A stretch of 64,000 nt of DNA from a virus: positions 96,706 to 160,705 of IMG/VR virus record IMGVR_UViG_3300046787_000675, one strand, 5' to 3'. Within the stretch, counting starts at the first letter, position 1, and each line of letters opens with the position of its first letter. Positions 2,540 to 64,000 of this stretch are shown one piece after another. Both the position numbers and the translations under genes were made by a program. The notes under the pieces are model-generated. The model searched no databases and was not told the origin of the DNA. It saw nothing but the letters and a program-made list of their open reading frames with translations.

Positions 2540-3574
2540 TTACCTTTTAGCAAATGCGTCGATGTATTTTTCCAGCTCTTTTGCAGAGTTTACGGATAAA
2601 GATTCTATAGCTTCTTTTAAATTAGGGATATCCGTGATTCCAAAGACATCGGATAAGAAGGTTTTTACCTTGTCTTGATTAAATTGACCCAGGCTAAAGT
2701 GTCTACCATTTGCTGTCTTGATAAGATTAGTATTGTATTCATCTATTTCACACATTGCAAATTTATACAGTTTGTGTTCTGGAGGTGTAAATTTATCGGA
2801 ATATTTATGTGTTAAGGAAGCGTGCCTGTCTACAGCGTCCAATGCCGAAGCAATATTCGATATAACATCGGCAGCGATAATACCTGTTTCAGCTGCAGAG
2901 TCCATGGCAACTTTCTCTAACAATAACATAGATTCTACATGTTTAGGGTGGGTGTGTTGGATAGCTACACGGCGTACATTTATCGCTTCTTTAACATCCT
3001 TTAGATCAGACACAGCATATCCAGCCGTTTTCTGTAGTGAGATAACTTTATCCCTGCCTAAATCGAAGTTTAACACTGTAGCGGTGGCTAACGCCTGCTG
3101 AGCTACTTCTTTCCTGATATTATATGTGTGATGTCCTGGCGTCAATATATCATTCGCGATCTTTTGTAGATCCTCGATAGTATCAACAGGGATATCCGCA
3201 TATACTTTATCACCGTCTTTATATTTAATGGAGATACCGTTACTTGCTATTTTCTCTAGTCGCTGTGCCGGTTTAAAAGAATCAAACGGCATATTGTATA
3301 GCTCACATACTTCTTTTATTTTATCGACTACTTCCTGTCTTACCTGGACACCTTCCATAGCTTGTTTCTGTATGTAAGATGCGGACAACCATGTGTCAGC
3401 TTTACTGGCAATAGGAAACATACGCAATACGCTATCAGCAAATTGATTTCTGTTAAGTTTATTGATATTGTCTTCATCTGTTAAGGATGCTTCCTTAACG
3501 AAATCTGGCATAGGGTTTTCACTTACTATTTTATAAAAATAGGATTTGTTTTTATCTTTGATGTAATCAATCAT
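2540..3574 (-). CDS. Head-type virion protein with eight K-x-A motifs
   Basis: A 344-residue helical protein of unknown family. It carries eight copies of the hydrophobic-x-K-x-A motif (FVKEA, IQKQA, LEKIA, LQKIA, LQKTA, LEKVA, LYKFA, LIKTA). This pattern is otherwise concentrated in the head module 46 kb away (protease, scaffold, 414- and 699-residue proteins) and nearly missing in the tail proteins checked. I therefore infer that it is packaged in, or processed with, the capsid although it sits beyond the adhesin genes. A 60-base gap with a possible promoter separates it from the LamG protein. The ribosome site is AGAGGACC before the ATG at 3574. Confidence 0.65.
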   Translation of the reverse strand: MIDYIKDKNKSYFYKIVSENPMPDFVKEASLTDEDNINKLNRNQFADSVLRMFPIASKADTWLSASYIQKQAMEGVQVRQEVVDKIKEVCELYNMPFDSFKPAQRLEKIASNGISIKYKDGDKVYADIPVDTIEDLQKIANDILTPGHHTYNIRKEVAQQALATATVLNFDLGRDKVISLQKTAGYAVSDLKDVKEAINVRRVAIQHTHPKHVESMLLLEKVAMDSAAETGIIAADVISNIASALDAVDRHASLTHKYSDKFTPPEHKLYKFAMCEIDEYNTNLIKTANGRHFSLGQFNQDKVKTFLSDVFGITDIPNLKEAIESLSVNSAKELEKYIDAFAKR

Positions 3575-21846: not shown

Positions 21847-21849
21847 ATG

Positions 21850-25574: not shown

Positions 25575-26016
25575 TGTTAAATTCCTGTATACGACCTATA
25601 AAATCTATTTTAAACGTATTACCTTCTACATTATCTTTACTATAATTACCTATATCCATGCTTGTTGCCCAACCAGATAAAACAATTTTGTTAAATGACA
25701 TTTGTATAGGTGTTCGTTTATTTGTTATTTTTATTGCGCGATAGAACGCCATAAAAGGAGGGATCTCGGAGTCACTATTTTCACATGCACTTGTTATATT
25801 TATACCTTCCAACGTAAATACCCCTAATCTATCGTTAAATACATTGATAAATGCGCGAGACCCTAAGCTATATAGTATTTGGAAGTTAGGAGACAGATTA
25901 CCTTTTATATCTGTTATCCATGTATTCGCCCCGTTCAGCTCGTTAATAACTAGTCGGACAGGGGAAGATGCACTAATCTCTCCTATCTCTGTCGAGGAAA
26001 AATAATCGTTCTTCAT
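25561..26016 (-). CDS. Baseplate/tube-like protein, 151 aa
   Basis: A small beta-rich protein with a central segment (NTWITDIKGNLSPNFQILYS) and FKIDFIGRIQEF at the end, a layout resembling tube-like baseplate proteins that join the tail tube to the hub (T4 gp48/gp54 class). It starts four bases inside the end of the tape-measure gene. Tentative, by position and size. Confidence 0.5.
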   Translation of the reverse strand: MKNDYFSSTEIGEISASSPVRLVINELNGANTWITDIKGNLSPNFQILYSLGSRAFINVFNDRLGVFTLEGINITSACENSDSEIPPFMAFYRAIKITNKRTPIQMSFNKIVLSGWATSMDIGNYSKDNVEGNTFKIDFIGRIQEFNNGRN

Positions 26017-47454: not shown

Positions 47455-48423
47455 TTACGCAGACCAGGCACTGAGTGAACCGGTATGGTCAACACGGGCT
47501 ACAGCTCCACTATTTTTGATAGTAGATCCGAGCATTTCGTAGGCGAACATCTCAAACAAGAAGTTTTCTACTTTTGTAGAGACAGTTACGTCTTCAAAAG
47601 TACAGAAGTCACCGATGAAGTTAGGAGCGGCGAAGTGATAGATACTATTATTAGCGACGAGGTCTTTCTTAATAGTAATATACCATTGCGTACCCATAAC
47701 GTTTCTTTCGCTGAAACCGTTGAGGAACATTTCTTGAGCGAGGTCACCGCCTAACTCAATACGGTCAAGAGCAACGATGTCGTGGATGGTTACGTTGTTA
47801 ACCAAACAAACAGCATCATTGAGTGAGCGATTGGTAGAAGGCAAACCTTTACAACCGTGTGCCAAAGAAGCGCGACTGATAGGACCTGCAGTTACATATC
47901 CTGCAGCACCTACTTCGAGAACGCGTGGGTTAGTGTTAGTAACATCGTTAAGTGGTCCGATGATAGTTTCGACAACAGCCATGAACTTACGGTCTTCTTC
48001 AGCAAGAATGTCTTTCAACATCAAGTCGTTGAAGATTTGTTTGATGTCCATATCGTAGGTCAACAAGTTGACAAAGTCACCGGTGAAACGGTGAGAAGCA
48101 ATCCGGTCGAACATAATCCGATATCTTGGAGCATCAATGTAATGGTTCATAGGAACGGTACCGAATGGGATAGTATACGCAGGCGGAGTGTTTGGCTCTA
48201 CGTCTCGTACAATTACCGGTCTTACGGTATCTGCCTGACGGTCGAAGTCAGACACAGTTACAGATTTAGGTGGAATAATACGACGTGTGAAGCCGTCTTC
48301 TCTTGCTCTTAACTGTAGGAAGCTACTGGCAGAATCCATTGCTTCTTTCTGAAGTGAGCTATCGTTTGAGCGCATGCTGTTAATGAATGCTTCATTGTTA
48401 GCTTTGATTACTGGGTCAATCAT
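47455..48423 (-). CDS. Major capsid protein (HK97-fold)
   Basis: 322 residues. The gene sits after scaffold and decoration-type genes and directly before a strong terminator, the standard place. The protein has a polar N-terminal arm, then the beta/alpha pattern of HK97 capsids with APRYRIMFDRIASHRFTGDF, FLNGFSERNVMGTQWYITIK and a C-terminal TFEDVTVSTKVENFLFEMFA. The N-terminal arm holds one hydrophobic-x-K-x-A motif (SLQKEAMDS, residues 24-28), which would release about 28 residues if cut after it. It is shorter than many jumbo-phage capsid proteins. Confidence 0.8.
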   Translation of the reverse strand: MIDPVIKANNEAFINSMRSNDSSLQKEAMDSASSFLQLRAREDGFTRRIIPPKSVTVSDFDRQADTVRPVIVRDVEPNTPPAYTIPFGTVPMNHYIDAPRYRIMFDRIASHRFTGDFVNLLTYDMDIKQIFNDLMLKDILAEEDRKFMAVVETIIGPLNDVTNTNPRVLEVGAAGYVTAGPISRASLAHGCKGLPSTNRSLNDAVCLVNNVTIHDIVALDRIELGGDLAQEMFLNGFSERNVMGTQWYITIKKDLVANNSIYHFAAPNFIGDFCTFEDVTVSTKVENFLFEMFAYEMLGSTIKNSGAVARVDHTGSLSAWSA

Positions 48424-49002: not shown

Positions 49003-49455
49003 TTAGTTATTTAATTTTTGTCTTAGACGAGCCATTGACTGATCCCAATTGACATCTGAATCCTTACTACCCTGTACTGTAGCAGTAGTGGGGGATGCTT
49101 GTTTGTCTATAGAACCTAAGCTAGGCAAGCCTTTCTTATTTACTGTATTCTCTGCAAGTTTTTCCAAGAAGGTCCCTAAGTACGCGTTATCTGTCATAGC
49201 GGCAGATATAAACCCTTTACGGTTAGCTTCTTTGAGAAAACCAGCTTCGATTACAGCATTTGCTAATTTGTCCGCACTGTCAGCGTTTATTCCTGACTTT
49301 ACGACAACCTGTTGGGCAGCTTCTTTCTGATTGAAAGCACCTTCTACCTGTGTTAAAAGATTTGTTAATCTGTTAATTTGGTTTGCTTGCTTTTCTATCA
49401 AAGCTTGAGAGGCTTGAATATACTGAGCCACTTCGTGCTGTACTCTTATATCCAT
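49003..49455 (-). CDS. Head assembly protein with K-x-A motifs, 150 aa
   Basis: A helical protein with a coiled-coil N-terminus and four strict hydrophobic-x-K-x-A motifs (IEKQA, FLKEA, LEKLA, IDKQA) plus two near matches. It lies between the scaffold-type gene and the decoration-type gene and looks like an internal scaffold segment processed during maturation. Function is inferred from motif density and position. Confidence 0.6.
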   Translation of the reverse strand: MDIRVQHEVAQYIQASQALIEKQANQINRLTNLLTQVEGAFNQKEAAQQVVVKSGINADSADKLANAVIEAGFLKEANRKGFISAAMTDNAYLGTFLEKLAENTVNKKGLPSLGSIDKQASPTTATVQGSKDSDVNWDQSMARLRQKLNN

Positions 49456-49474: not shown

Positions 49475-50407
49475 TTACGATAAACTATTTTTTAAAATAG
49501 ATTTTATCGCATTGACATTGTTACGTTTTTGTTCAGCTGCTGTTTTTTGAACTTCACCTTCTGCTGGAGCGCTAACGCCTTCTGCGTTTATCTCACTCAA
49601 GGCTTGGGCAAGATCTTCTTCGGTAGCTCCTTGGGCTTTTAATTCCTCAATAATAGCTACTGCTTCTTGGAGGTCTTCAGGCGTAGCACCTGATTCTGCC
49701 AAAATATTGGAGATCTGTTCTAATTCTGCTTCGCTTGGAGCTCCACCTTCAGCAGGAGCGGCTGCGGCTTCCGGTGGTAAAGCTTCTGGAGCTGCAGCTT
49801 CTGGAGGTAAAGCATCAACAGGTAAAATATCTTCTGGAGTTTCCATAGCAATCTTATCTAAAAGATTACCGATACCGCCGGCTTGTTGGATTAGAGGGGC
49901 GAGGCTGGCATTCTTTTGAAAACCTTCTTCATCTCTCTGTCTGGCAGCGAAACCTGCTAAAAAAGATAAAGCATAGTCATTACCTTTTTGGATAGCTACT
50001 TTTTCAAGTTCGGTGTATTGTTTTTCTACACTGGCTTGTTTTTGCATACCCATTAAAGTATTAACCAGGCTGTTTGCTACTTTAGTGATTCTTGCTTGTT
50101 CTGCTGCTGTTTTTTGCACTTGGCCAATTTCCTCTTTAACAATATTACCGATGTTGCCTTGTGTAACTTTATCATCGACATATAATGTTTTTGTGCCTTG
50201 ATCGTCTGTAGGTTTGTCACCCATAGATCTGTTATTATCTTTCTCATCTTCGATAGTTGAGCCAGACGCTTTAGCTGCTTTAGATTGTTCAAGACCGAGA
50301 TTGGTCTGTTTATCTTTGGCAACAAATGAAGTATCCATAGCTACTTTTTCACGAAATGGGCGCAGATACTGTTCAATCGCATCCATAGTATCTAATTGAT
50401 TTGACAT
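49475..50407 (-). CDS. Probable scaffold protein, 310 aa, K-x-A rich
   Basis: An acidic, helical protein with a Pro/Ala-rich stretch near residues 200-230 (DALPPEAAAPEALPPE) and seven hydrophobic-x-K-x-A motifs (VQKTA twice, ITKVA, MQKQA, LEKVA, FQKNA, LDKIA). Its location between protease and capsid protein and its helical, charged nature fit a capsid scaffold. The VQKTAAEQ sequence occurs twice, near residues 105 and 288. Role inferred. Confidence 0.6.
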   Translation of the reverse strand: MSNQLDTMDAIEQYLRPFREKVAMDTSFVAKDKQTNLGLEQSKAAKASGSTIEDEKDNNRSMGDKPTDDQGTKTLYVDDKVTQGNIGNIVKEEIGQVQKTAAEQARITKVANSLVNTLMGMQKQASVEKQYTELEKVAIQKGNDYALSFLAGFAARQRDEEGFQKNASLAPLIQQAGGIGNLLDKIAMETPEDILPVDALPPEAAAPEALPPEAAAAPAEGGAPSEAELEQISNILAESGATPEDLQEAVAIIEELKAQGATEEDLAQALSEINAEGVSAPAEGEVQKTAAEQKRNNVNAIKSILKNSLS

Positions 50408-50505: not shown

Positions 50506-53100
50506 CTAGTGCATATTATACATAGTTACTAACTTAGCATCTTTATCCCTGCCGCTGAGGTATGATAACTCATACTTAGCATATTCTTTTGCAAGATATA
50601 CGCTTTCGGCGGTTGGCTGTGTTAGTTTCTTGCAGTTTGCTTCTTTAGATATAGGGTTAACAACGATTATTTTTAATACTCGTTTATTTAATGGTCCTTC
50701 ATCCATAGAATGACTATCTACAAGATTACCTATTATATCATCTAGACCAGACCAATGACCTGTTTCTTTTGGTGTATATGATCCGTCTTCTACTGCCTCA
50801 GTTCCTTCCTCTTTTAATTTCTGAAAGATACTAGGCAAAGCGCTTGTTATATCCTCAAGACCCTCGATGTTTCCTTTAGGTTTCTTGAGAACTATCCTTA
50901 TAAACGATTTAGGAGGTAGTAATATACCTTTCTTATTACATCTGCTTATAACATCGTCTAACGGATAATTGCAAAGCTTACACATAGACTCTTCGTCTAA
51001 TTCGTCCGAAAAGCTATTTGATAGTAACTTAACATCACTATCTGCGTGTTCAAGCTGTATTCGTTTTTCCATATCAGCTAATTTCTCTAATAAGCGTGCT
51101 CTTCTGCCCACTTCTTCCCCTGCCAGCTTATCAATTAAGCTATGCGGGATATATAAACCTTTATTAATTTCTCTGTCAATTGCGAATACGTCTTCGCTTT
51201 TATAATTCTCTGAAGCTACTTTAGATAGACCAAATGCTATTCTATCCGCAGGTTTATCTACACAAGATATGTCGTGGAAGTGAGGCTGGTCATTATACAT
51301 AAATATTTGACTGCCTTCTTTAGTAAGTTCCAATTTATTATATTTTACATGGTTACAATAATCTGATAATACTTTTGCTTTATTGCCGCATACAGAACAG
51401 TTATGTACTGCTACTCCATTGGCTATGTAGGATTCGTCACCCTCTACAGACATATTATACACAACTTCATCTACAGCTTCAATCTCCCTTATAGACACAA
51501 CAGGTGTATATACATAATCACCTACCAACCTAGTCTTGGTAGCGGTTGCCCTAGTAGACCAGGCTGTAATGTATCCTGCTTTTACGGATAGATCTTTAAG
51601 CTCTTCTAAAAGGTCCCTCGACAGACAAACTACAAAAATATTTCCCGAGCTACTATAGTCCGAATTATAATAAGGTTGTCTATTTACAGATATACCGAAC
51701 CCTGCTGACGCAGCTTGTCTTGTTAAAGTATGTGCTAAATTTCTAGATGTTACTGTTATTCGTCCGTACTGTTTATCTACATCTACATGTCCGTCGGAGT
51801 CTAACATACCTGCTACAAAATTTAGTGCTTGTTTAGGTGGAAGAACGCCTGTTAATGTTTTATATAAGCTATATTCCTTACAATATTTTCGACAAAGAGT
51901 AGCTAATCTCTGATCATACATAGATAATTTTACAGCTCCTTTATCATCATATTTACGGCATTCTTTACCTGTTATTGCATATAAAGTAGACGCAACTCTA
52001 TCTATTATAGCTGGGTGTTTTAGGTCTAATGTAAAACTAACCCCCATATCTTTAATAGGATCTTTATCCTTATTCTTCCCTCCTCGCTGCTTAATGAGGT
52101 GCCCATCTCCGGCATACATTCCTAATATATACGCTTCATCCTCAGATATATCAGTAATATCAGCCTTAGCAACAGGGTATACTAGGCAATCTCCTATTCT
52201 TAGATCCTGCGCAGCTATCCACTCTGGAACAGCTATATACTTAGAACATACAGCACATATCAAACTTCCATCTTTAGGAACGCATTTACGTTTACCTGTC
52301 GCGGTACTTCCTTGACATACTGTTAATTTATCTCTGGGGACTACTAAGTAAGGGTGGTTACCTGTAACGTAAGACTCTTCTGAGATATCCCCTGAGGATA
52401 TAATACTATACATAGCTCCTGAGTAAATATTACGCATGGTTGTTAAAACCTTCTTCCATGCCCCGGTATGTGTACGGACATTGTCTCCTTGTTCTATGTC
52501 TTCTATATTTTTTAATCCATGTTCTGTTTCTATAGAAGTACCTTTAGTAAAACACACGTCGTAAGGTAAACCGGCACCCATACTCCAGAAGACATTGCCT
52601 TTGTCCGATGCAAGTTTATTTAACTCGTCTGACCATAGTTCTTCCGGGAGTTTAACAATTAGCTCACCTCTATCCATTTTATCGTTATATGCTTCCAGAA
52701 CAACTTCCCCAAGAGGTTTACCATTCTTTCTACCGTTTACATGGTTTCTGTAAGGTTTAGCGTACTTTAAGAAAGTGTTATGATACTCTTTTAAACCGCC
52801 TCCCAGGAGCATGCTTTTCGGACCTTTAGGTTCTTCAAATTCAACCCGGCGTGCTTCTTTATTAAAGTAGTCCGCGTTGTTATTAGCTCCGTATCTCTCT
52901 CCGGATCCTGTAGTAATTAAATGTACAAAACCAAAACCTTTCTCCGGCTTTATATCTGCTGCTTTAAACAGGAAATAGTCGTCGGAGGCGATCTTCTGCA
53001 GCTCGTGTCTATCAAGTCCTTTAGCGAAACTACCGATAAGATGAGAAGTCTTGCAGATATCCTTAAAAGTCTGAGAAGGTTGTATGTACTTATTTAGCAT
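50506..53100 (-). CDS. Head maturation protease interrupted by an intein
   Basis: 864 residues; removing the 385-residue intein leaves 479. The host part has candidate catalytic His120 (YRNHVN), the P-x-G-E-V strand and the nucleophile-type DISCVDKPADRIAF segment (S612) typical of prohead proteases, plus a zinc site split by the intein: C568-x2-C571 ... C582-x-H584 (CSVCGNKAKV ... YCNH). It should process head proteins during maturation. Eight hydrophobic-x-K-x-A motifs lie in the host parts and none in the intein. It lies between two K-x-A-rich proteins and the scaffold. Confidence 0.75.
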   Translation of the reverse strand: MLNKYIQPSQTFKDICKTSHLIGSFAKGLDRHELQKIASDDYFLFKAADIKPEKGFGFVHLITTGSGERYGANNNADYFNKEARRVEFEEPKGPKSMLLGGGLKEYHNTFLKYAKPYRNHVNGRKNGKPLGEVVLEAYNDKMDRGELIVKLPEELWSDELNKLASDKGNVFWSMGAGLPYDVCFTKGTSIETEHGLKNIEDIEQGDNVRTHTGAWKKVLTTMRNIYSGAMYSIISSGDISEESYVTGNHPYLVVPRDKLTVCQGSTATGKRKCVPKDGSLICAVCSKYIAVPEWIAAQDLRIGDCLVYPVAKADITDISEDEAYILGMYAGDGHLIKQRGGKNKDKDPIKDMGVSFTLDLKHPAIIDRVASTLYAITGKECRKYDDKGAVKLSMYDQRLATLCRKYCKEYSLYKTLTGVLPPKQALNFVAGMLDSDGHVDVDKQYGRITVTSRNLAHTLTRQAASAGFGISVNRQPYYNSDYSSSGNIFVVCLSRDLLEELKDLSVKAGYITAWSTRATATKTRLVGDYVYTPVVSIREIEAVDEVVYNMSVEGDESYIANGVAVHNCSVCGNKAKVLSDYCNHVKYNKLELTKEGSQIFMYNDQPHFHDISCVDKPADRIAFGLSKVASENYKSEDVFAIDREINKGLYIPHSLIDKLAGEEVGRRARLLEKLADMEKRIQLEHADSDVKLLSNSFSDELDEESMCKLCNYPLDDVISRCNKKGILLPPKSFIRIVLKKPKGNIEGLEDITSALPSIFQKLKEEGTEAVEDGSYTPKETGHWSGLDDIIGNLVDSHSMDEGPLNKRVLKIIVVNPISKEANCKKLTQPTAESVYLAKEYAKYELSYLSGRDKDAKLVTMYNMH
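51400..52554 (-). mobile_element. Intein with LAGLIDADG endonuclease in the protease gene
   Basis: Starts at C183 (CFTKGTSIETEHG) and ends VAVHN (H566-N567) before C568, leaving DV|CSVCG. It contains the Hint splicing blocks (TGNHPYLVV near 246-254), two LAGLIDADG-type motifs (ILGMYAGDGH and FVAGMLDSDG) and an extra four-Cys cluster (C262, C273, C282, C285). The Hint elements support splicing; homing activity is inferred. Confidence 0.9.
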
Positions 53101-54334
53101 CGTCCTTACCTTTATTTTTGGTATCTTCAGCTACAGGTTTTTTATCTTCTTTGGCAGGTTGTCGCGAATCTGCCAGATCTTTTTCAACCTTATAAGCTTG
53201 ACCGATCTCATATAAATCTTTACGACCGTTAGTCTCTAGTTGTTGTAACATTAGAGATGATGCTGCAGCCGGGCTATTTGCCAATAATACTGGATGACTG
53301 TCAGCTAAGGCATTCCACGCCCCTACTATTTGACTATGTGTATAGTTTTTAAAGTTAGGATTGTCGTTTATAATGCTATAGAGCGTTCTTTTAGCTTCCA
53401 GAGCTTTTATCTTATTATAATAACTTGGATCCAATGCATCTCCGACAGTTTTTTCTTTGGTAGGTTGTACAAATAAAGCTTTCTCTTTATTGTCACCGAC
53501 ACTATTGGCCAAGGAAGCGGTTAAAAATCTTTGGAGGTTATCCGATACAAAGTTAGCTTCTTTTTGAAGTTGTTCGTGCCATTGCTCTGCCCGCGCTAAT
53601 TTATGCGCTGATTCATAAGCTCTCTGCATAGAAAGAAAAGGCTCTTCTGCAGGAGGGAAATAACCGGAAGCAGTTTTCTGAAGGCATTCATCTGCAATAG
53701 GGACATTCAGCCTGGCGGATACAATCTTCATCATTTTAGCTCCTACCTCCGGATAAATGTTTACAGCCTTACGAGCTGTTTTTTCCAGGGTTTTAGGAAG
53801 CATATAACTACAGGTGTCGCAAATCTTATCTATAGCTTTCATAAAATCATATTTGTGTTTATTGAGCTCAAATTTAGCTACCTTTTCCATATTACCGAAA
53901 AAGTCTGCTTGTTGAGTTAAAGCCCTGGTATAGGAGCTTGCGCTAAGTTCTGGATCCTTACGGTAGACTTCTTTAGTCTTAGCCTCTTTAAATAAAGGAC
54001 TGAGTAGATCTACTGTATTGAGGTTAGGAGGTAACGAAAAAGACCTTTTTGCCTCTTTCTGTTTTTCTTCGTAGATATTAGATACTATGACAGATGTATC
54101 TGCCAAGTCGAAAGGATGATGCCGTGTATCGGCACTTGCCTCTTTCATAATATGTACTGCTTTAGCTTTATTGAATCCTTCGACCATTCTAGCTATAAAA
54201 TTAGGTGTGTAGTTTTCGCGACGTGCAACTTTCTCTAGTGCCTCATTAGGCGTATCTCCCTGTTTAGTAAAGGCTATAGCATCTGTAACGGCACTGATAA
54301 GTTTATTCTGTTCTGTTGGACTGAGTGTTTTCAT
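53090..54334 (-). CDS. K-x-A-rich helical head protein, 414 aa
   Basis: Helical throughout, with seven strict hydrophobic-x-K-x-A motifs (LEKVA, IMKEA, LFKEA, MEKVA, LEKTA, LQKTA, LQKEA) and one near match. It overlaps the protease gene by 11 bases. No family is recognised; it may be an internal core protein cut by the protease. The high density of the motif suggests that it is a substrate or a head-targeted protein. Confidence 0.65.
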   Translation of the reverse strand: MKTLSPTEQNKLISAVTDAIAFTKQGDTPNEALEKVARRENYTPNFIARMVEGFNKAKAVHIMKEASADTRHHPFDLADTSVIVSNIYEEKQKEAKRSFSLPPNLNTVDLLSPLFKEAKTKEVYRKDPELSASSYTRALTQQADFFGNMEKVAKFELNKHKYDFMKAIDKICDTCSYMLPKTLEKTARKAVNIYPEVGAKMMKIVSARLNVPIADECLQKTASGYFPPAEEPFLSMQRAYESAHKLARAEQWHEQLQKEANFVSDNLQRFLTASLANSVGDNKEKALFVQPTKEKTVGDALDPSYYNKIKALEAKRTLYSIINDNPNFKNYTHSQIVGAWNALADSHPVLLANSPAAASSLMLQQLETNGRKDLYEIGQAYKVEKDLADSRQPAKEDKKPVAEDTKNKGKDDAK

Positions 54335-54343
54335 TTTTATTTC

Positions 54344-56443
54344 CTATTCGGTATGTGCTGTTGCAATATCTGTAGATAGATTACCCAGTGTATTTTCTGC
54401 TTGATCCGGGTGGAATGTTGTTTTTTCTTTGAGGAAAATAACAAGGTCGCCTGTTGCTAAGAATACTTCTTTAAGATGAGAATGTAATTCTTTCATCTTG
54501 TCCTTTCCATGTCTATCCTCAAAGGCATCGTTATGCCAGTAGTACAGAAACAATAGTCGTCCTAGTGCATCCAGACCTTTAATCAAGGCGGAAGTATAAT
54601 CTTTACGTAGTTCCGAAATATCTGCTTTATCGACTAATTGTTTTATAACAGATACATCGAGTACTTCTTTTATACCTGACCCTGCGGCTTCCTGTGCTTT
54701 ATTAATAGCTTCCTGTGGTAATATTGCTTTACCTTTTTTAGTTTGGATTGTCTCAACAATAGGTTGTTTTTCTTTACCTCTTGGCCCACCCATGAAAGGT
54801 TTAAAAGAAGAATCTCGGTATGAGTTCAGATTAAAGGCAGCGGATTCTTTATATAAATATCTTTTCTTATGTCCCGGCGAGCTATGTGCTTCTTTTAGCA
54901 TCCGGATAACATCTTGACCTTCTATCCCGTAACCTTCACATAGTATTTTTGCCATGGCTTCTTTAGGAATAAACGGTGTATTGCCGTTTGCATCCGTCAA
55001 GCTTCCGTAGTTGGCATTACTGCCCATATTTACTTCAACACAGCCTAAACCTTTAGACGTATATGCTTTGATTGAGAATAGGGAAGGCATGCCGTATTTA
55101 GGTTCGGACTTTCTATTTTGTACAAACATACGGCAATCATCCGAAGGTACATATAATTTATCTTCTTTAGCTATTAGTTTACCTTCGTCGGTAAAAACAA
55201 CTAACATTTCCTTTCTATTGGAAAGACCGTCATAAAGATTAACATAGATATTGCCGGAGAAGTCAGAAGCATAACGACTGAGATCTGCTTTAATAACATT
55301 ATGTGTGGAGTGGACGAATAACAGGCTGGTCATATCTTTGATATCGCGTATAGACCTGGCTGAAGCTTTCATTCCACCTTGTTTGTTTTCGATTTTATTC
55401 CTGTCTAATCCTGTTGTGGGTTTAGCGAATACATCTGCAGCTTTAACCCAGAAAAAGTCGTGACTGGAATCAATAGGAATAAGTGCAACATGAGAAGTTG
55501 TATTCTTACAGTGTCCGTCTGCCCCTCTATTAGGTTTAACAATAATATACTTCTCCAGTGTCCCGTCCTTTAATAATACATCATAGATACCAGGGGAAGT
55601 AGGATTTTGGAAATTTCCTGAATCAACTTCTTCGTGAAATACTTTGGTAAAATTAGTCCTATGATCTTTGATGTATATGCCGTTTTTAACGAGTAGTTTT
55701 TTCTCGTTATCGTCTAGCTCTTTAGCTTCTTTGCTTAGTTTATCCTTGATGTAGATTACTTTATTCGGTTCTACTACAGGAATAACATCTCTGTATATGA
55801 TCGCCTGTTTAGCTACTTTCTCGATATGGTCTAAGCTATGTACTTGGAATAGAGCATTTGCGAATTCTGGATCTTTAAGGAATGTATTGACAAATAATGA
55901 ACTTGCCTCTTTAGGTAATGCTTCTAATGCTCCGTCGAGAGAAGGAAGATATTGTTTCTCTACGCCTTCCCCTAATCTCTTAAACATGTTATCTACAGCT
56001 TCTTTTTCCAGGAACGAATTATTACCAAAAGAAGACGCAGCTAATTTAAATATAGAACTATCTGGAGAAAAGGTATTGGTGTTCTCAGAAGATGCTCCTA
56101 AACCGTTGTTGTTAATTTCGCTATTGGTTGCTGTAGAGCCAAGTATCTGTACTCCCTGGTCATTGATAGCTGCAATGAATGTATCTGTTGCAGGTACAAA
56201 CATATCTTTATTTTTTATGTATAGTAACTCAAATCCTTCCAGAGCACCTTTTATAAAGAATATCGGAATATATAACCAGACATTATTAACCACAAAGGCA
56301 TAAATACCTACGGCTTTTGTATCGTCGTCTGTTTTATCAATAATCTGAAATCCTACTCTATATTCTACTAGAGACGGAAGTCTTTCGTTAAGCTCCGCGT
56401 CAACTAACTGTCCAAAACGTTGCTCAAATGATATCTCTGCCAT
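54344..56443 (-). CDS. Large head-module protein, 699 aa (not a clear portal)
   Basis: It lies where a portal gene would be expected, but I do not see a portal-like wing/stem pattern. The N-terminal about 110 residues have a distinct beta/alpha domain (YAFVVNNVWLYIPIFFIKGA ... ELLYIKNKDMFVPA), and seven hydrophobic-x-K-x-A motifs are scattered from residue 130 (LEKEA, LPKEA, IEKVA, LSKEA, IPKEA, MLKEA, IFKLA). A role in the head core or connector is possible. It follows the beta' C-terminal gene after about 115 non-coding bases. Confidence 0.55.
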   Translation of the reverse strand: MAEISFEQRFGQLVDAELNERLPSLVEYRVGFQIIDKTDDDTKAVGIYAFVVNNVWLYIPIFFIKGALEGFELLYIKNKDMFVPATDTFIAAINDQGVQILGSTATNSEINNNGLGASSENTNTFSPDSSIFKLAASSFGNNSFLEKEAVDNMFKRLGEGVEKQYLPSLDGALEALPKEASSLFVNTFLKDPEFANALFQVHSLDHIEKVAKQAIIYRDVIPVVEPNKVIYIKDKLSKEAKELDDNEKKLLVKNGIYIKDHRTNFTKVFHEEVDSGNFQNPTSPGIYDVLLKDGTLEKYIIVKPNRGADGHCKNTTSHVALIPIDSSHDFFWVKAADVFAKPTTGLDRNKIENKQGGMKASARSIRDIKDMTSLLFVHSTHNVIKADLSRYASDFSGNIYVNLYDGLSNRKEMLVVFTDEGKLIAKEDKLYVPSDDCRMFVQNRKSEPKYGMPSLFSIKAYTSKGLGCVEVNMGSNANYGSLTDANGNTPFIPKEAMAKILCEGYGIEGQDVIRMLKEAHSSPGHKKRYLYKESAAFNLNSYRDSSFKPFMGGPRGKEKQPIVETIQTKKGKAILPQEAINKAQEAAGSGIKEVLDVSVIKQLVDKADISELRKDYTSALIKGLDALGRLLFLYYWHNDAFEDRHGKDKMKELHSHLKEVFLATGDLVIFLKEKTTFHPDQAENTLGNLSTDIATAHTE

Positions 56444-56558: not shown

Positions 56559-59540
56559 TTATAATCGTGTAGGATCCATCAATTTACTTGCATAACCTAC
56601 ATCGTCATGTTTACTGGTTCCACCTAATCTGATATCTTCCAGTAAATTTTTCTTTAAATTGAAACCTGTTAATTTATTTTTGAAGTCTGGGTCCGTTCCC
56701 GGTATATCCATAATTCTCATCGGTGCCGGTTCGAAGCCCGGCGCAGCGTCGTGCGTTTTAATACTTTTAATCTGTTCTTCTTTTAAAAACTTTGCAACCT
56801 TAGGTGTTATCCGTGTTCCAATACTGTAATGTAATACAGGCTGCTCTAGATATTTACCTACAGCTCTATCGGGAGATAGCTCGATGGAATCTTTACGCGG
56901 TTGGTAGTTTCGCTGAATGTCGCTATATGTGACAATATCATCAATGACATGGCCGTTAGGTCCTTCGATATCTGTTATTTTTACGCGGTCAAAGAATCCC
57001 CTAGCTAAAGTTTCTACATGGCGTTGTTTAACATTTATTCCGTTGTTTTTTAATATCTGTCCAAATTTATTAACAAAATAAAGACGCGCATCTCCTATCC
57101 CTTTATACTTTGCCATCTCAGCGGGATTAGGTGTTCCGTCAGTTAACATATCTCCTTGTTCAATCTGATCGCCAACAGTAACTAATACATCCCGAGCAGG
57201 ACTAGCATAGAATGCCTCTCCGCCTACAGTTATGTACTTGCCTCCTTGAGGGGCGTCCGATATACTCTGTACTATTCCATCTTTATTAGATAATACAGAT
57301 CCTCCTCTAAAATGTTTAGGTACTTGAAGGAATTGATTGACTTCCTCGAATCCGGATAATTCATCGGAGAACTGTTTACCCCCAATAATGCCCCCTGTGT
57401 GTTTGGAGGATAACCCTGACTGAGTTAAAGGTTCAGACAATAAACGACCTGTATCAACACCTACATAGGCTCCTATTTCTGGAAAATTACCTTTATCTCG
57501 TTTTCCGGCACAGCGTCTACATATCCCGTTACCTGATTGACATGTTATTAACGATCTAACAAGTAATTTCTTATCTTGGATAGCGGGTAGATGTTTTTTT
57601 GTTATAGTTGTTCCTGCAGGTACATTCCCTACATCCTTAGCAAGCACTCGACCTATAACATCGCTGTTGTCGCCCAACATAATAATACCTTTGTCGGATG
57701 CGCCGCAATCGTCTTCGACTACTTGTACACGAGAAGAAGCTAAGGCTAATTGTTTACCTAAAAATCCTGATTTTGCTGTCATGAACTGAGTGTCAGAGTT
57801 AGATACTACCATCCCGTTAGCCAATACAAATAAATGGTCTTCGTGATCTACTTCAAGATCGTATGTAGAGCGAGTGCCTAATACTGATGTACTAACATAA
57901 TTTAATCTTGTATCTTGTGATCTCCCGTCGGATTTTACAGAATGGATTATCTCTCTGACTTTTTTACCTTTTTTTCCAATAGTAGTTAGATATTGACTTC
58001 TATACAACACCGATTGTCTATCGGAATAACTTAATACATAAGCGTCTCTAGATGCCTTTATAGTATACCCGTAAGATGATGATTCGGGTATATTTTTTTT
58101 ATCTATATGAATTATATCTGTACAATATATTCCTAGTCTAGTCTCTAGTAGATATCTAATTCCTTTGAGTAACTCTTCGGATGTAGAGTGATATCTGATA
58201 ACAGGGGTTGAAGTAATTCCACTTATTGTACTTCCGCCATCAGCTTCGAAAAATCCATTTATAAATGCACATACACTATTATTATCCCATGTCATAACTT
58301 CTGGAGGTATTACTTTTTCATATGATTTTTTACCTAAAAGACCGAAATTAGCTATCCATGCTTTAGCACTATTAGAGGAGAATTTATTTTTTCTATCTAA
58401 ATCGAGTAACACATATTCGTAGGATGGCATTTTCGATTTTCGATTACGCTCTTTATATTTTAAATACCAATTTAAAGGTTGTAATAATTCATTTAAGGCG
58501 TCGACTAACTCAATATCACTAGTAGTTAAAGTTATAGAATTTTGGACACTAAAGTGCCCATCCCCTATTAATAAACCGAGTAGAAACGCTTTAGTAGTAT
58601 CGTACGGAATCCCATTAAAATTATTTCCTTTTGATAAAGTTATACCGAAATTCTTTTTAGCAGTACCAATAGGATATTTATCTTTTTTGCGGCGAAGTAA
58701 ACTACCAGTAGTCCATTCCCCCAATACTTTATGATCTTCTGTACATTCTATATATCTATACGAGTGTGTTCTTCCTAGTCTGAATCTATATGAGTAAACT
58801 TGTTTTATTCCGTTATCGTAGGTATTGACTACTTGGGTAGGGAATGTATTCCCTTTCTTATCTGAACCTAGAACATATTCTCCTACGTTTATATCTTCAA
58901 TCGATTTCTGTGTCCCATCAGCCATGCGTACTTTAGTTCCTTTTGCGAGACAATACCCTTTTCTCGAAGAGAAAGACCCGGCAAAATACTCCATGGGTTT
59001 TGCCCCTTGAGCGTACCCATTGATACCTGGAACAGGAATTGGCCTACCTGCTTGGTCGGCTACAAGTATGTCGCCAAATAATAATTGTGTTAGCTGTACA
59101 GGAGAACCTCTAAAACCGTGCTTAATACTTTCCCCTAAAGAATTGTTTCCTTTACTGGTGCTATCAAGGACGATCTTGTTAATTACAGGCATCTCTTTAC
59201 GCATGTATTCTACAATCTCTTTGTTTTTCTGCTCGGGAGATTTCCTTCTATCCTGTTGGATGTCGACAATATTATTTTTTATAACCTCGCGATATTTCTT
59301 TACTTCATCTGGCATTTTTAAATCGGATAAACGTATAGACGCCAGTCCTCCTTGTTCTGTTCCGGCTACCCTGGAAACATTCATAAGGGACTGCATTGTA
59401 TCGATATATTTGTCAGGATGTCTCTCGGCCATTGCCAGGAAAAATGTCTCTGCAGATTTCTTGTTAAAGACTCTATCCGGATCTCGTAAGTCTTCCGGAA
59501 TTATATCGTTTATCAGATATTGACCTAATGTGCGCGCCAT
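56559..59540 (-). CDS. RNA polymerase beta' subunit, C-terminal half, with intein
   Basis: 993 residues; 608 without the intein. The host sequence holds the bridge-helix region (SSRKGY | SDTQFMTAKSGFLGKQLA, corresponding to ARKGLADTALKTA), then VVEDDCGA, and a complete second zinc site C612, C667, C674, C677 with the same internal spacing as bacterial beta' (7 and 3 residues). A trigger-loop-like EIGAYVGVDTGRLLSEPLTQ ... GLSSKHTGG follows. This is the catalytic C-terminal half of a multisubunit RNA polymerase. The matching N-terminal half is a separate gene (62995-64000). Assignment strong; the beta subunit is not in the window. Confidence 0.9.
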   Translation of the reverse strand: MARTLGQYLINDIIPEDLRDPDRVFNKKSAETFFLAMAERHPDKYIDTMQSLMNVSRVAGTEQGGLASIRLSDLKMPDEVKKYREVIKNNIVDIQQDRRKSPEQKNKEIVEYMRKEMPVINKIVLDSTSKGNNSLGESIKHGFRGSPVQLTQLLFGDILVADQAGRPIPVPGINGYAQGAKPMEYFAGSFSSRKGYCLAKGTKVRMADGTQKSIEDINVGEYVLGSDKKGNTFPTQVVNTYDNGIKQVYSYRFRLGRTHSYRYIECTEDHKVLGEWTTGSLLRRKKDKYPIGTAKKNFGITLSKGNNFNGIPYDTTKAFLLGLLIGDGHFSVQNSITLTTSDIELVDALNELLQPLNWYLKYKERNRKSKMPSYEYVLLDLDRKNKFSSNSAKAWIANFGLLGKKSYEKVIPPEVMTWDNNSVCAFINGFFEADGGSTISGITSTPVIRYHSTSEELLKGIRYLLETRLGIYCTDIIHIDKKNIPESSSYGYTIKASRDAYVLSYSDRQSVLYRSQYLTTIGKKGKKVREIIHSVKSDGRSQDTRLNYVSTSVLGTRSTYDLEVDHEDHLFVLANGMVVSNSDTQFMTAKSGFLGKQLALASSRVQVVEDDCGASDKGIIMLGDNSDVIGRVLAKDVGNVPAGTTITKKHLPAIQDKKLLVRSLITCQSGNGICRRCAGKRDKGNFPEIGAYVGVDTGRLLSEPLTQSGLSSKHTGGIIGGKQFSDELSGFEEVNQFLQVPKHFRGGSVLSNKDGIVQSISDAPQGGKYITVGGEAFYASPARDVLVTVGDQIEQGDMLTDGTPNPAEMAKYKGIGDARLYFVNKFGQILKNNGINVKQRHVETLARGFFDRVKITDIEGPNGHVIDDIVTYSDIQRNYQPRKDSIELSPDRAVGKYLEQPVLHYSIGTRITPKVAKFLKEEQIKSIKTHDAAPGFEPAPMRIMDIPGTDPDFKNKLTGFNLKKNLLEDIRLGGTSKHDDVGYASKLMDPTRL
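57798..58952 (-). mobile_element. Intein with LAGLIDADG endonuclease in the beta' bridge helix
   Basis: Starts C197 (CLAKGTKVRMADGTQKSIED) and ends GMVVSN (N581) before S582. The Hint N- and C-blocks (CTEDHKVLG; DHLFVLANGMVVSN) and LAGLIDADG motifs (FLLGLLIGDGH; AFINGFFEADG) are present. The penultimate residue is Ser, not the usual His. Length 385 residues, the same as the protease intein. It lies directly in front of the bridge-helix segment that reads SDTQFMTAKSG. Confidence 0.9.
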
Positions 59541-60188: not shown

Positions 60189-60917
60189 TTACCTCAGATT
60201 ATATAGGCGTTGTATAATTGTACCTAGCTCACTGTTATTTATTTTTTTTTGTTGGGCTAACTTTTCGACAGGAGGCGGCGCGAAAGACTCAGGCATTGCT
60301 TCCGGCATAGGAGGAGCAGACAGTTCTTCTGAAGGCATTGTAGGAACGCCTTCTGGAGCTACCATACCTAAATTTGCTTGCAGTAAGGCTACCTGTTCTG
60401 TTAAAGCATCTATCTGCATTTGCATCTCTTCAAATCTACTATCAGAAACCGGTTTATCTTTTTTAGATTTAGCACCACTGCCAATTAATTCTACCAATTC
60501 ATCTACGGTTAACTCACTAACGAGTTTAGGAGCTGTTTCTCCATCCTTGGCACCTACATTACCGATTGCATTCGGGTCAGGTCCGACAGGAGTCATTCCG
60601 CCGGCAGCAGGATCTAAAGGAGGCATACCACTTGCTTGATAAGCTGCCATTAAATCTTCTGCGGAAGGGACTCCACCGGCAGGGGGCATTGCACCCATCA
60701 TAGCAGGATCCATTGGAGGCATTCCTCCTGGGGGTATCGCGCCCATCATAGCAGGATCCATTGGAGGCATTGCACCCATCATAGCAGGATCCATTGGAGG
60801 CATTGCACCCATCATAGCAGGATCCATTGGCGGTTGGCCTGGAGGTGGTCCCGGAGGTGCATATGCTGTCTTCTGTAAGAGATCTTGTAAAGCAGCCAAG
60901 TTTAATTTTTCAGACAT
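60189..60917 (-). CDS. Pro/Met-rich repeat protein, 242 aa
   Basis: The N-terminal third contains four copies of the unit PPMDPAMMGA, then an acidic helical region and a second proline-rich segment (SAPPMPEAMPESFAPPP). Two hydrophobic-x-K-x-A motifs occur (LQKTA near the N-terminus, VEKLA near the end). It may be a flexible internal virion or scaffold protein. The DNA repeats are nearly identical, so copy number probably varies between relatives. Confidence 0.6.
   Translation of the reverse strand: MSEKLNLAALQDLLQKTAYAPPGPPPGQPPMDPAMMGAMPPMDPAMMGAMPPMDPAMMGAIPPGGMPPMDPAMMGAMPPAGGVPSAEDLMAAYQASGMPPLDPAAGGMTPVGPDPNAIGNVGAKDGETAPKLVSELTVDELVELIGSGAKSKKDKPVSDSRFEEMQMQIDALTEQVALLQANLGMVAPEGVPTMPSEELSAPPMPEAMPESFAPPPVEKLAQQKKINNSELGTIIQRLYNLR
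60691..60837 (-). repeat. 33-bp tandem repeats encoding PPMDPAMMGA units
   Basis: Units begin at 60739, 60772 and 60805, each 33 bases apart, with a fourth at 60691 separated by a 15-base insertion. The copies are almost identical, showing recent duplication within the gene. Confidence 0.85.
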
Positions 60918-60929
60918 ATTATAATCCTT

Positions 60930-61565
60930 TTATTTATTATCCAATTTATATAGATAGCCTGCTATATAGGCTTCTTTGTTTACATTACTATCTTGTAAAG
61001 TAATGCTGTGCGCTTTCTTTTCCAATGTAGATTGCGAATACGTGTTCGTTTTTATAGTTTTTACAGCTTTCAAACGATTACCGTTTATAGGCGCATATCC
61101 TCCGGTCATATGTCCCAGAAGAAATATTTCCAGTTGTTTGGGTGTCTTTGTCTGAAGTTTATCCCAGCCGTCCCCTTCTTCCGATGTCGGTTTAGATACG
61201 GTATCTACCTCTGCGATAAATATATGATTATCTTCTCCCGCATATTTATTTGCCCAGCTTCCCATTGCCTTCTGCATTGAGGGAGGCCATTTCCAGACAA
61301 CCTTAGAAATTAATTTAATATTTTTTAACGTTATCCCGCATTCCTCTAATGCCTCTCTGCGAACTGCAGTTACCGGACCTTCTCCTTCGTCTATTCCTCC
61401 TCCCGGTACCTCAACATATAATCCGCCTGCAGACGATCTCTTAATACGTGCAACAATAGAGCCATCAGGCATTATAGCGAATACCTCAGCTCGTTTTCTA
61501 TAGGGGAGCGATGCCCCCTTTAGTGTTGTTAATTTTACGGTTTCATCGCGGGCGTATTTTAACAT
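60930..61565 (-). CDS. Nudix hydrolase with C-terminal virion-like tag
   Basis: 211 residues. The Nudix box G56-x5-E62-x7-R70-E71-x-x-E74-E75-x-G77-I78 is exact (GGIDEGEGPVTAVRREALEE then CGI), so it should hydrolyse a nucleoside-diphosphate-linked compound. Its C-terminus (VNKEAYIAGYLYKLDNK) repeats the tag found at the N-termini of the proteins at 61571 and 62795. A further LEKKA motif is present. It lies between the two RNA polymerase half genes; possible substrates include NTPs, capped RNA ends or dinucleotides, not determinable here. Confidence 0.85.
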   Translation of the reverse strand: MLKYARDETVKLTTLKGASLPYRKRAEVFAIMPDGSIVARIKRSSAGGLYVEVPGGGIDEGEGPVTAVRREALEECGITLKNIKLISKVVWKWPPSMQKAMGSWANKYAGEDNHIFIAEVDTVSKPTSEEGDGWDKLQTKTPKQLEIFLLGHMTGGYAPINGNRLKAVKTIKTNTYSQSTLEKKAHSITLQDSNVNKEAYIAGYLYKLDNK

Positions 61566-61570
61566 ATTGT

Positions 61571-62341
61571 TTATTCTTTTTGTCTACCTTGCATTCTGTT
61601 GATAGTGTCCAGGACTTTTCCGGCTTTGCGTTTATTGTCGGATTGTTCAAGTAAACTACTTCCTAGCCCGACGGCATCGGCTCCAAGACGTGTACCTAAA
61701 CCTGCCAATGCAAGTTCTGGTTTGGCTGTTAGTGCGCCTGCAAGACTGACTAATTGACCAGCAGTTTGTAGTCCTGTTCTTGCTGTTTCGCCTGTTAAGT
61801 TTTTGAATTTTTTATCAGGATCTGTAATTGCCTCCGCTACTTCTGTATATCCGCTATCTGCCCATCTAGCTCCAGGCATTATTATACTCTTCAATGCCGA
61901 CTTTATACCTCCAGTATCAGATATTCTCTTTAGTTCCGGTGTAAGTTCTTTAATATCTGCAGTAGCCCCTTCTGCCGCTAATCTTTCAACTTTACTCCGT
62001 CTTAGTTTACGAGCAAGAAGTAAGGCAGCCAATCCACCTACTCCTCCTGAAATACCGGCAATTACAGCTCGTTTGCTATTACTCATATTTTTACTTAGAT
62101 AACCCCCTAGAGCAACTCCGCCAATAGAGCCTGTAAGCCCAGATACCATGTCGGATGCTACCGGATGGTTAGTGTTAACGGAAGTATCACCGGCTGCTTC
62201 GGCAAGTGCTTCCATTCTACCGGAATCTGTATTACCGTTAAAGAATAAGCTACGTTGGTCTTTAGATCTATCGAGGAGTTCCTGGATTGTTGGGTTAGCT
62301 TCTTTATACATGTACCCATTTAAAAATGCTGTCTTATTCAT
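61571..62341 (-). CDS. Glycine-zipper protein with N-terminal tag, 256 aa
   Basis: It begins MNKTAFLNGYMYKEANPTIQ, the tag shared with 62795 and with the Nudix C-terminus. A Gly-rich membrane-type region follows (VSGLTGSIGGVALGGYLSKN ... VIAGISGGVGGLAALLLARK, residues about 65-115) and a basic helical tail. It may be a virion-carried membrane protein. It overlaps no neighbour closely and starts four bases after the lipoprotein gene ends. Confidence 0.6.
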   Translation of the reverse strand: MNKTAFLNGYMYKEANPTIQELLDRSKDQRSLFFNGNTDSGRMEALAEAAGDTSVNTNHPVASDMVSGLTGSIGGVALGGYLSKNMSNSKRAVIAGISGGVGGLAALLLARKLRRSKVERLAAEGATADIKELTPELKRISDTGGIKSALKSIIMPGARWADSGYTEVAEAITDPDKKFKNLTGETARTGLQTAGQLVSLAGALTAKPELALAGLGTRLGADAVGLGSSLLEQSDNKRKAGKVLDTINRMQGRQKE

Positions 62342-62344
62342 ACT

Positions 62345-62620
62345 TTATTCCACTATTTTTTTGATTAAATTAGTTCCTGCACCTGCAGGTGTAAGGGAGG
62401 ACGGATCTACACTAATAGGGATAGCCTGTTTAGCATCTTGTTTAGTGTCTTGCTTAGAGTCTTGGGTGTTATCCGAAGAAGTAGTTACTGTTATGTCGTT
62501 AACAACCGCATTATCGCCAAATGTAATAGTAATTCTTACACCGGCAGCTGTTTCGTTTTCGAATGGGGTAGTTGCACATGCAGTCAACAAAACAATGCAG
62601 ATAATTAATAAATATCTCAT
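62345..62620 (-). CDS. Small lipoprotein, 91 aa
   Basis: Signal peptide MRYLLIICIVLLTAC with lipobox L-L-T-A-C15 is followed by a polar, Thr/Asp/Gln-rich mature part (repeats DSKQDTKQDAKQ). It is likely lipid-anchored in the cell envelope, perhaps a spanin or exclusion factor. AAGGAG precedes the ATG, inside the 3' end of the tiny gene upstream. Confidence 0.6.
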   Translation of the reverse strand: MRYLLIICIVLLTACATTPFENETAAGVRITITFGDNAVVNDITVTTSSDNTQDSKQDTKQDAKQAIPISVDPSSLTPAGAGTNLIKKIVE

Positions 62621-62621
62621 G

Positions 62622-62738
62622 TTATTTCTCCTTTTTAATTTTGTTATCTATTTTTTCTTTAACGGTTTCATTTATGTTTTTCTGAAGTTCTTTACTTTTT
62701 TCTTTAGCAAACTTTTTTAGATCGTCTTTGTCAGTCAT
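62622..62738 (-). CDS. Lys-rich small protein, 38 aa
   Basis: A short frame (MTDKDDLKKFAKEKSKELQK ...) that ends within the ribosome site of the lipoprotein gene. It is a highly charged amphipathic helix with Lys at regular steps. Only a weak AGG precedes its start, so it may be a real micro-protein or a coincidental frame. Not recognised. Confidence 0.45.
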   Translation of the reverse strand: MTDKDDLKKFAKEKSKELQKNINETVKEKIDNKIKKEK

Positions 62739-62794
62739 ATATGTACCTATTTATTGTTATATTAATTGACTCTATTTATTTAAAATTTCACTAT

Positions 62795-62989
62795 TTATTT
62801 TTGAGATAAACTTAATAAAGCTTCAAGTTGGGCTTTCTTATAAGGGTCGAAATAAACACCTTGATAAAAAAGATTGTTCGGGTCAATAGAGTTCTCTAAG
62901 AAAGCCTCTGCAGTAGGCCTATAAGGAAGTACGGAAGCGTCGCGTGACTCTTTATACATATATCCATCGAGGTAGGCTTGCTTGTTCAT
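62795..62989 (-). CDS. Tagged small protein, 64 aa
   Basis: It begins MNKQAYLDGYMYKESRDASV, nearly the same tag as the 256-residue protein, then a short alpha/beta piece. Otherwise no family is recognised. It sits six bases after the beta' N-terminal gene. If the tag is a virion- or protease-directed signal, this protein is likely carried in the capsid. Confidence 0.6.
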   Translation of the reverse strand: MNKQAYLDGYMYKESRDASVLPYRPTAEAFLENSIDPNNLFYQGVYFDPYKKAQLEALLSLSQK

Positions 62990-62994
62990 TTTTC

Positions 62995-64000
62995 TTATTT
63001 CTTTATGTCTAATATTTCGATCGGATCGTCTATTTTTATTAAACCTTTACTGAAGGCTTTAATGGCGTCATCCTTTGTTTTAAAAATAGTCTTCTGTTTA
63101 TTCCTGTCCGGGTCTTTGGAGGCAAAGTATAAACCTTGTAAATATTCGTTACCCAGCATGTAAGTAGGTTTATCTGTTCCGCTAAGGATAAGATTCTTAT
63201 CCGGCATCATGCGATCGATAGCTTCCTGTACTGCATCTTCCGATACAGGGACGGAGTAGGACATTGTGTTCGATAATATAGTTCCGTCGACAGACATGAA
63301 AGTTTCATATCCAGGAACAGTTAAATCGTATCCTGTTTCTACTTTTTCGGTGTTTTCAACCGATACAACGTATGTCCATGTAGTATCAGTATCCTCGACT
63401 ATTCTCTTCCAGTTATTAAATGGTTCAAGAATATCAGCAGGAGTATTACTATCGATAAGATCTAAACATTTCTGAGCCGACTGCCGACTAATATAACCTG
63501 ACTTATTACTGTCTGCGAGAGCATGATAGAGACCTGTACATTGTCTTCCGTGTTTTAATTTCGGGCTTCTATTATATTCTGCTAACTTAAGGAAAGCTGC
63601 AAGGTTTCTCTCTATAGGGACTAAATCGCTTTTTATATAAGCTGCCGCAGTATTATCAGGCGTAACCTCGAACAACTTTCTATGTTTATCTTCATGCGCA
63701 ATACAGAGTTCATCCCGTAATATAATTAGTTCTACTGCCGATATTGTAAGCATCCAACTAATATTATCACACTTAGTTGTTTTACCATAAGATATACGGG
63801 AGGACACACCTAACGACATAAGTAGCTGTTTTACCTCCTGTACCAAGCGAAGAGATATAGAAGAGAAAGATGTCATAAGTTGTGGTTTACTTTTTCCGTT
63901 AGATATAGATATACTTCCGTCAGAATCAAACAGTCCAGATAACAGCCCTATTTTAAACTCTCTAGGGGAACATAACCAAAAGGATGGTAAGTGTTTTTTA
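62995..64000 (-). CDS. RNA polymerase beta' subunit, N-terminal half, with intein (partial)
   Basis: The frame is open to the right edge, so the 5' part and about 60 percent of the intein-containing gene are outside. Inside, after the intein, the host sequence TMSYSVPVSEDAVQEAI ... MLGNEYLQGLYFASKD matches the segment that follows NADFDGD in beta' (QMAVHVPLS ... DVVLGLYYMTRD). Its C-terminus (KAFSKGLIKIDDPIEILDIKK) is the end of the N-terminal half. A separate gene (56559-59540) holds the other half, so the subunit is split as in some giant phages. The DFDGD motif itself is just outside the window. Confidence 0.85.
   Translation of the reverse strand, partial: KKHLPSFWLCSPREFKIGLLSGLFDSDGSISISNGKSKPQLMTSFSSISLRLVQEVKQLLMSLGVSSRISYGKTTKCDNISWMLTISAVELIILRDELCIAHEDKHRKLFEVTPDNTAAAYIKSDLVPIERNLAAFLKLAEYNRSPKLKHGRQCTGLYHALADSNKSGYISRQSAQKCLDLIDSNTPADILEPFNNWKRIVEDTDTTWTYVVSVENTEKVETGYDLTVPGYETFMSVDGTILSNTMSYSVPVSEDAVQEAIDRMMPDKNLILSGTDKPTYMLGNEYLQGLYFASKDPDRNKQKTIFKTKDDAIKAFSKGLIKIDDPIEILDIKK
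63268..64000 (-). mobile_element. Intein at the NADFDGD site of beta' (3' part)
   Basis: Ends DGTILSN (63268-63270 is the final Asn) before T+1, giving the extein T-M-S-Y-S. A LAGLIDADG motif, FKIGLLSGLFDSDGSIS, lies at about 63907-63957. The C-terminal Hint block is YDLTVPGYETFMSVDGTILSN; the penultimate residue is Ser. The 5' part and the splice start are beyond the edge. Confidence 0.85.

Follow-up and report, generated by a model that had tools for sequence, protein, structure and literature searches.

A peptide tag carried by otherwise unrelated phage proteins consists of two parts, a core (M-N-K-x-A-[FY]-x-x-G-Y) and a site (hydrophobic-x-K-x-[AS]), and it moves between protein bodies and between termini, and shares its site with capsid and core proteins. 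From its sequence, this tag is probably a cleavable capsid-targeting propeptide, working like the T4 CTS and removed by a prohead protease specific for K-x-A. The tag was identified in a 64,000-nucleotide stretch (the window) of IMG/VR virus record IMGVR_UViG_3300046787_000675, which is 160,705 bases long; the window spans positions 96706-160705. Genes were called as greedy longest open reading frames, truncated at the ends of sequence pieces. Features of the window and tagged proteins elsewhere in the record are listed in Table 1.

Table 1. Tagged proteins, head-module genes and predicted sites (window positions; record positions in the last row). Expected values are for K-x-A counts.
Feature	Position	Strand	Remarks
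64-aa protein, N-terminal tag MNKQAYLDGYMYKES	62795..62989; tag 62945-62989	-	tag HMM 30.4 bits
Glycine-rich 256-aa protein, N-terminal tag MNKTAFLNGYMYKEA	61571..62341; tag 62297-62341	-	tag HMM 28.9 bits
Nudix hydrolase, C-terminal tag VNKEAYIAGYLYKLDNK	60930..61565; tag about 60933-60983	-	tag HMM 10.9 bits
Predicted release site L-E-K-K-A, boundary of Nudix body and C-terminal tag	61011..61025	-	consensus as in head-module sites
Head-module protein, repeated K-x-A, Arash gp218 homologue	54344..56443	-	10 vs 5.3 expected
Head-module protein, repeated K-x-A	53090..54334	-	9 vs 5.5 expected
Predicted prohead protease with intein	50506..53100	-	intein by Pfam; 13 K-x-A vs 5.2 expected
Scaffold-like head protein, rich in hydrophobic-x-K-x-A	49475..50407	-	9 K-x-A vs 3.3 expected; between protease and MCP
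Small K-x-A-rich head-module protein	49003..49455	-	6 vs 1.6 expected
Major capsid protein (MCP)	47455..48423; K-E-A residues 26-28 = 48340-48348	-	relative of Arash MCP
K-x-A protein distant from head module	2540..3574	-	11 vs 3.2 expected; homologues in G001, G002, G005
Tagged proteins elsewhere in record	8866-9333; 12102-12860 (two tags); 21279-22028; 25507-26406; 26413-26958		

A sequence-only reading had reported the peptide in three small proteins, and all three copies are present in exactly the frames and positions it gave. K-Q-A-Y-L-D-G-Y-M-Y-K (62951-62983) and K-T-A-F-L-N-G-Y-M-Y-K (62303-62335) each begin at residue 3 of the 62795 and 61571 proteins, respectively, and K-E-A-Y-I-A-G-Y-L-Y-K (60945-60977) ends four residues ahead of the Nudix stop codon, all on the minus strand. 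The Nudix assignment holds as well (PF00293, E = 1.3e-10, 41.8 bits against a cut-off of 21.1), and the Nudix box, GX5EX7REUXEEXGU, is legible in this protein. The count of three was right for these genes but low, because the whole record encodes eight tagged proteins with nine tags; the five additional proteins lie outside the window, between 8866 and 26958 on the record. Should the record be a circularly permuted genome, all eight tagged genes would sit together in a single block immediately upstream of the head genes. In the related record G005, tagged genes occupy 144.9-172.3 kb and the head genes start at 172.4 kb. Two other genes were noted beside the tagged genes of the window. One, at 62345-62620 and flanked by two of them, encodes a protein of 91 aa that has a signal peptide and a lipobox-like LTAC sequence; the other, at 60189-60917, contains tandem MPPMDPAMMGA repeats and has weak relatives in G001 and G005.

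The overlap of the tag with the K-x-A pattern, claimed in the sequence-only reading, is borne out, but what had been described as a single signal resolves into two separable elements, a predicted docking core and a predicted cleavage site. The site directly follows the core in most tags and lies 2 to 19 residues further on in others (MDVIEKEA, MELDNLTKES, GIPKVA, SGGMSKQA, ETIIFKVA, IQKTA); where the spacing varies, the site shifts as a unit. Selection of N-termini by the core alone gave a non-circular count, in which the site, a motif derived from head proteins and not from cut peptides, occurs within the next 25 residues in 42 of 48 distinct sequences and is missing from the remaining six. 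Shuffling the same test 2000 times gave a mean of 5.0 and a maximum of 12 sequences with a site. Among N-termini that lack the canonical spacing, a site was found in 19 of 25 (2.6 expected). Since the site follows the core even here, the two are distinct elements that occur in company. A site count based on a hidden Markov model (HMM) of the tag used 50 of 51 tags, with one C-terminal tag omitted, and is partly circular because canonical tags seeded the model. A tag may also hold two sites, as its starting M-N-K-x-A itself fits hydrophobic-x-K-x-A.

The tag occurs far above chance. A strict DNA pattern produced five matches in the window's record and none for a reversed control. Across all of IMG/VR, in a scan that may leave out records close to the window's record, it matched five other stretches, one in an open reading frame of at least 50 aa and four in shorter ones; these look like chance matches. 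The 1101 proteins of five records picked solely by capsid protein contain A[FY]xxGY 33 times; the first 12 residues account for 23 of these, against an expectation of 2.4. Four permuted cores with the same letters in other orders occur two to six times each in these records and never within the first 12 residues. An HMM built from 27 canonical tags (threshold 8 bits) found 51 domains in 1339 proteins, compared with one in reversed and none in shuffled sequences; the five-record count is the fairer of the two, because some loci of the 1339-protein set were themselves retrieved with the tag. The HMM scan skipped loci of records already in the set (G001, G002, G004, G005). In total, 50 tagged proteins were collected, 47 by HMM and three by hand (G001 5965, L100 4743 and G003 34992), with weak HMM matches in G002 140573 (7.9 bits) and L116 (7.7 bits) excluded. 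Capsid-protein-chosen records contributed 29 of the 50; the other 21 are not independent, their loci having come from searches with the tag pattern. In G002 141854 and G005 149365 the tag sits inside a longer reading frame, after a methionine that is a possible true start.

A search with the MCP recovered five IMG/VR records (G001-G005, the tags of G004 repeating those of G005). It also recovered Salmonella phage Arash and the Vibrio phages D69, D148 and D181, whose MCPs are 26-28% identical. The DNA pattern K-x-A-[FY]-x-x-G-Y-[hydrophobic] is present in six of six records (G000-G005), with 29 matches among them and none for the reversed control in any record. The same pattern has no match in Arash or D69, though both have K-x-A sites. 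A slightly looser pattern, applied to 11 further records reached via the protease, matched in G008 (five tags) and G016 (one, inside an intein) and had no match in the other nine. Start-anchored searches of IMG/VR returned 30 stretches, many with several tags per contig. Inspection of N-termini by eye at distant loci yielded no tag variant apart from a possible HGYLAGYLAKEA (6.6 bits) in L125-L127. On the MCP tree, tag carriers require two changes, and the tag may have a single origin among them. The sequence-only reading had named confinement to its three genes as evidence against a portable signal; the tag is instead found elsewhere in the same record and in relatives.

The head module has the same site as the tag end. 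K-x-A is enriched in the genes from 54344 to the MCP and in their homologues. A logo of 249 K-x-A occurrences in 28 head-module proteins, selected in part for their K-x-A richness, reads hydrophobic-[EQD]-K-[ETQ]-A-[SA], with L, F, I or M two residues before the lysine, E, Q or D one before, and S or A following the alanine; for the other 1023 K-x-A, outside these 28 proteins, the logo is almost flat. Many copies of the same sites are present in the matching head genes of Arash and D69. The 53090..54334 protein has relatives in G001 and G005 that match D69 0268 and Arash gp220, and the 54344..56443 protein matches Arash gp218 (E = 1.2e-5), which is on the Arash virion list. From that list of 116 proteins only membership was used; its coverage figures were set aside because it includes many replication enzymes and high coverage values with few peptides. 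The N-terminal arm of the MCP has a single K-x-A, near residues 26-30, in all 11 distinct MCPs compared, the most divergent at 26% identity: K26 and A28 are invariant in seven of seven sequences, and the motif is at the same place in four further distinct MCPs. The K-E-A of this arm has the look of a propeptide site and is predicted to be one. Homologues of the 54344 protein in four loci (L121 5080, L123 5113, L128 4792 and L132 4946) have an extra N-terminal extension that ends in K-x-A right before the conserved start, e.g., MKSLIVRNGLMTKNA-GDEGPSFEQQFG, and by sequence looks like another propeptide. Two short, partial MCP-like reading frames were seen in G001 (147553-148019), distant from the head module. 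A fragmented RNA polymerase beta'-like gene with intein sequence is present in the window (56559-59540 and 62995-63876). Arash particles contain virion RNA polymerase subunits, and because beta and beta' rank among the most detected virion proteins there, the window phage may package RNA polymerase as well.

A candidate for the protease lies in the same module. The gene is long and contains an intein in the window, apparently also in G002 (94489-97080) and L132 (9887-12541); orthologues in G001, G003 and G005 are without intein, and intein-free orthologues are about 480 aa in length. A structure model of the first 270 residues was constructed from nine relatives (pLDDT 70.7); an earlier three-sequence model (pLDDT 39.8) was too poor to use in structure search. 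In VIA-align, the best solved match to the predicted fold was T4 gp21 (Z 9.0, 131 residues, 3.3 Å, 11% identity), followed by herpesvirus proteases (Z 7.8 and 7.3), with the first unrelated protein, MlaD, at 6.9. Against viral models there were 84 matches at E = 0.001 or better, several of which carry the name prohead protease (E about 1e-5). Foldseek gave no solved match in the PDB at E = 0.001 or better, its top rows being MlaD/LetB, and a Pfam search with five orthologues found no prohead-protease family up to E = 1. Profile matches to PDB sequences comprised designed coiled coils and a zinc finger only and were taken as chance. H119 and S171, which may be the catalytic His and Ser, are invariant in nine of nine relatives. 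The model resembles the T4 gp21 fold, and the gene is a candidate prohead protease.

Delivery of cargo by the tag, to the capsid interior or the protease as the sequence-only reading proposed, we infer from the site common to the tag end, the capsid arm and the scaffold-like proteins, together with the gp21-like gene in the module. Docking, cutting, packaging and ejection, all of which we infer, would proceed as follows. The core MNKxA[FY]xxGY would dock a late protein on the assembling prohead core, and the gp21-like protease of the head module would cut the adjoining hydrophobic-x-K-x-A/S after Ala or Ser, leaving the body free within the head, perhaps to be ejected later with the DNA. For C-terminal tags the order would be reversed, with an upstream site (LEKKA in the Nudix protein) freeing the enzyme. 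We lean slightly toward a general two-part cargo code, in which AFxxGY plus hydrophobic-x-K-x-A at either end would direct head loading and release by a gp21-fold protease, and effectors such as Nudix, DUF5661 and glycine-zipper proteins would be swapped as plug-ins. The literature searches made for this analysis turned up no account of this tag.

Three other functional or historical readings, and one artifactual one, were weighed against a capsid-targeting propeptide. It is unlikely that the peptide has no address function and serves only as a cleavable propeptide holding glycine-rich or membrane-active proteins inactive until maturation. The same site and protease argument would apply, and GxxxGxxxG runs are commoner among tagged proteins (17 of 50) than others (133 of 1290). 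However, TM-like stretches, by hydropathy, are rarer among the tagged (3 of 50 versus 190 of 1290), the Nudix and DUF5661 bodies are not of membrane type, and mere inhibition needs neither a C-terminal version nor a conserved core far from the site.

Common ancestry, in which one duplicated family diverged in its bodies and kept a conserved N-terminus that has no sorting role, is very unlikely. Tandem arrays of neighboring tagged genes occur in G005 and L100, and a few bodies are homologous, as this reading predicts. With tags masked, however, the bodies of the 50 tagged proteins group into 40 families, on which ground we reject descent of all of them from one gene; this also agrees with the sequence-only description of a portable tag, at either terminus, on unrelated bodies. 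Bodies of one family carry the tag at opposite ends: DUF5661 (PF18905) has it at the N-terminus in G005 145252 (E = 9.7e-12) and at the C-terminus in G003 34992 (E = 1.3e-10), the latter with no clear site upstream. On the Nudix body the tag is C-terminal. A gene split, or possibly a fusion in the opposite direction, provides a further case. L103 encodes a single protein of 299 aa that has one tag and, internally, STMVEKQA, whereas its counterpart in L100 is two reading frames, each with its own tag; the second begins MNKLAFYQGYIYSYEKSTMVEKLA, a new core ahead of the old site. Second-half frames in L097 and L089 are tagged too, and the G005 homologue has only MQNAPINKEA there; homologous bodies exist with and without the tag. 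Searches of cultured phages with tblastn found no match for the 61571 protein, the Nudix protein or the tagged L103 protein. In other phages DUF5661 is fused, without a tag, to DUF2213 or other bodies. One of these, Vibrio phage VPs20 (L144 1389-2657), has DUF2213 then DUF5661 in one protein, with other head-type genes adjoining, an arrangement that hints at DUF5661 being a head-associated domain more widely.

Marginally less likely still is sorting to another phage-made compartment or complex (e.g., replication or nucleus-like), with K-x-A cutting incidental. A portable terminal peptide could act in any kind of sorting, but the site after the core matches that of the capsid arm and core proteins, and the tagged genes of G005 adjoin its head module. 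The probability of chance, low complexity or a mistaken LAGLIDADG-like motif, to which A[FY]xxGY[ML] is similar and which has look-alikes within inteins of G016 and the window (AFINGFFEADG at 58251, a LAGLIDADG-type intein motif and not a tag), is negligible given the permuted-core (2-6 versus 33, none N-terminal) and HMM (51 versus 1 reversed and 0 shuffled) controls, and the acidic D-x-G-type end of the LAGLIDADG motif is absent from the tags, which are followed by x-K-x-A/S in its place.

If the tag is a capsid-targeting propeptide, proteins carried in the heads of a group of uncultured large phages could be listed from sequence alone; most of these candidates match no known family. It would be a second natural cargo address alongside the T4 CTS, would make terminal targeting peptides mobile modules, able to pass from one unrelated body to another and from one terminus to the other, and would predict a protease specificity of Lys at P3 and Ala or Ser at P1.

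Comparisons with known systems draw on parts of PMC10052503, PMC3012670, PMC5694885, PMC9026906, PMC7697877 and PMC10585845. The window phage shares a homologous MCP and protease with Arash, D69, D148 and D181, and with Arash and D69 also the K-x-A in the MCP arm and neighboring head proteins; unlike these two, which were scanned, it has the tag. The candidate protease is like T4 gp21 and herpesvirus assemblins in the fold of its protease domain and in the location of its gene, which lies upstream of the MCP within the head module, and unlike gp21 in the intein of the window copy and in its predicted substrate motif. The parts of the prohead protease literature consulted contain no record of Lys/Ala specificity for a gp21 fold. 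They give S/A-x-E for phiKZ gp175 and A-x-E for SPN3US gp245, with Ser favored after the cut in SPN3US (PMC9026906 among the sources). As described in these parts, phiKZ and SPN3US resemble the phages here in that a short site recurs across head proteins, with several copies in propeptides, but their propeptides exceed 100 residues, whereas those here are short, and hydrophobic-x-K-x-A has no acidic residue at the predicted cut.

The closest parallel is the T4 CTS, likened to the tag by its working and not by descent, the peptides being too short for a homology test. In the sections drawn on here, the CTS is an N-terminal propeptide of the unrelated internal proteins IPI-III and Alt that is removed by the prohead protease (PMC9026906, PMC5694885, PMC7697877), and it takes unrelated proteins into the head (PMC9026906, PMC5694885); targeting depends mainly on residues 4 and 7, and processing on residues 8 and 10 (PMC9026906). 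Like the CTS as described there, the tag is a short terminal peptide common to unrelated bodies, with the predicted targeting part first and the predicted processing part last (42 of 48 by the motif derived from head proteins). The tag differs in its core, MNKxA[FY]xxGY, and in a site with K and A where the motifs reported for T4 and the giant phages end in Glu. It is also found at the C-terminus, in tandem and on many more body families than the CTS, in unclassified phages.
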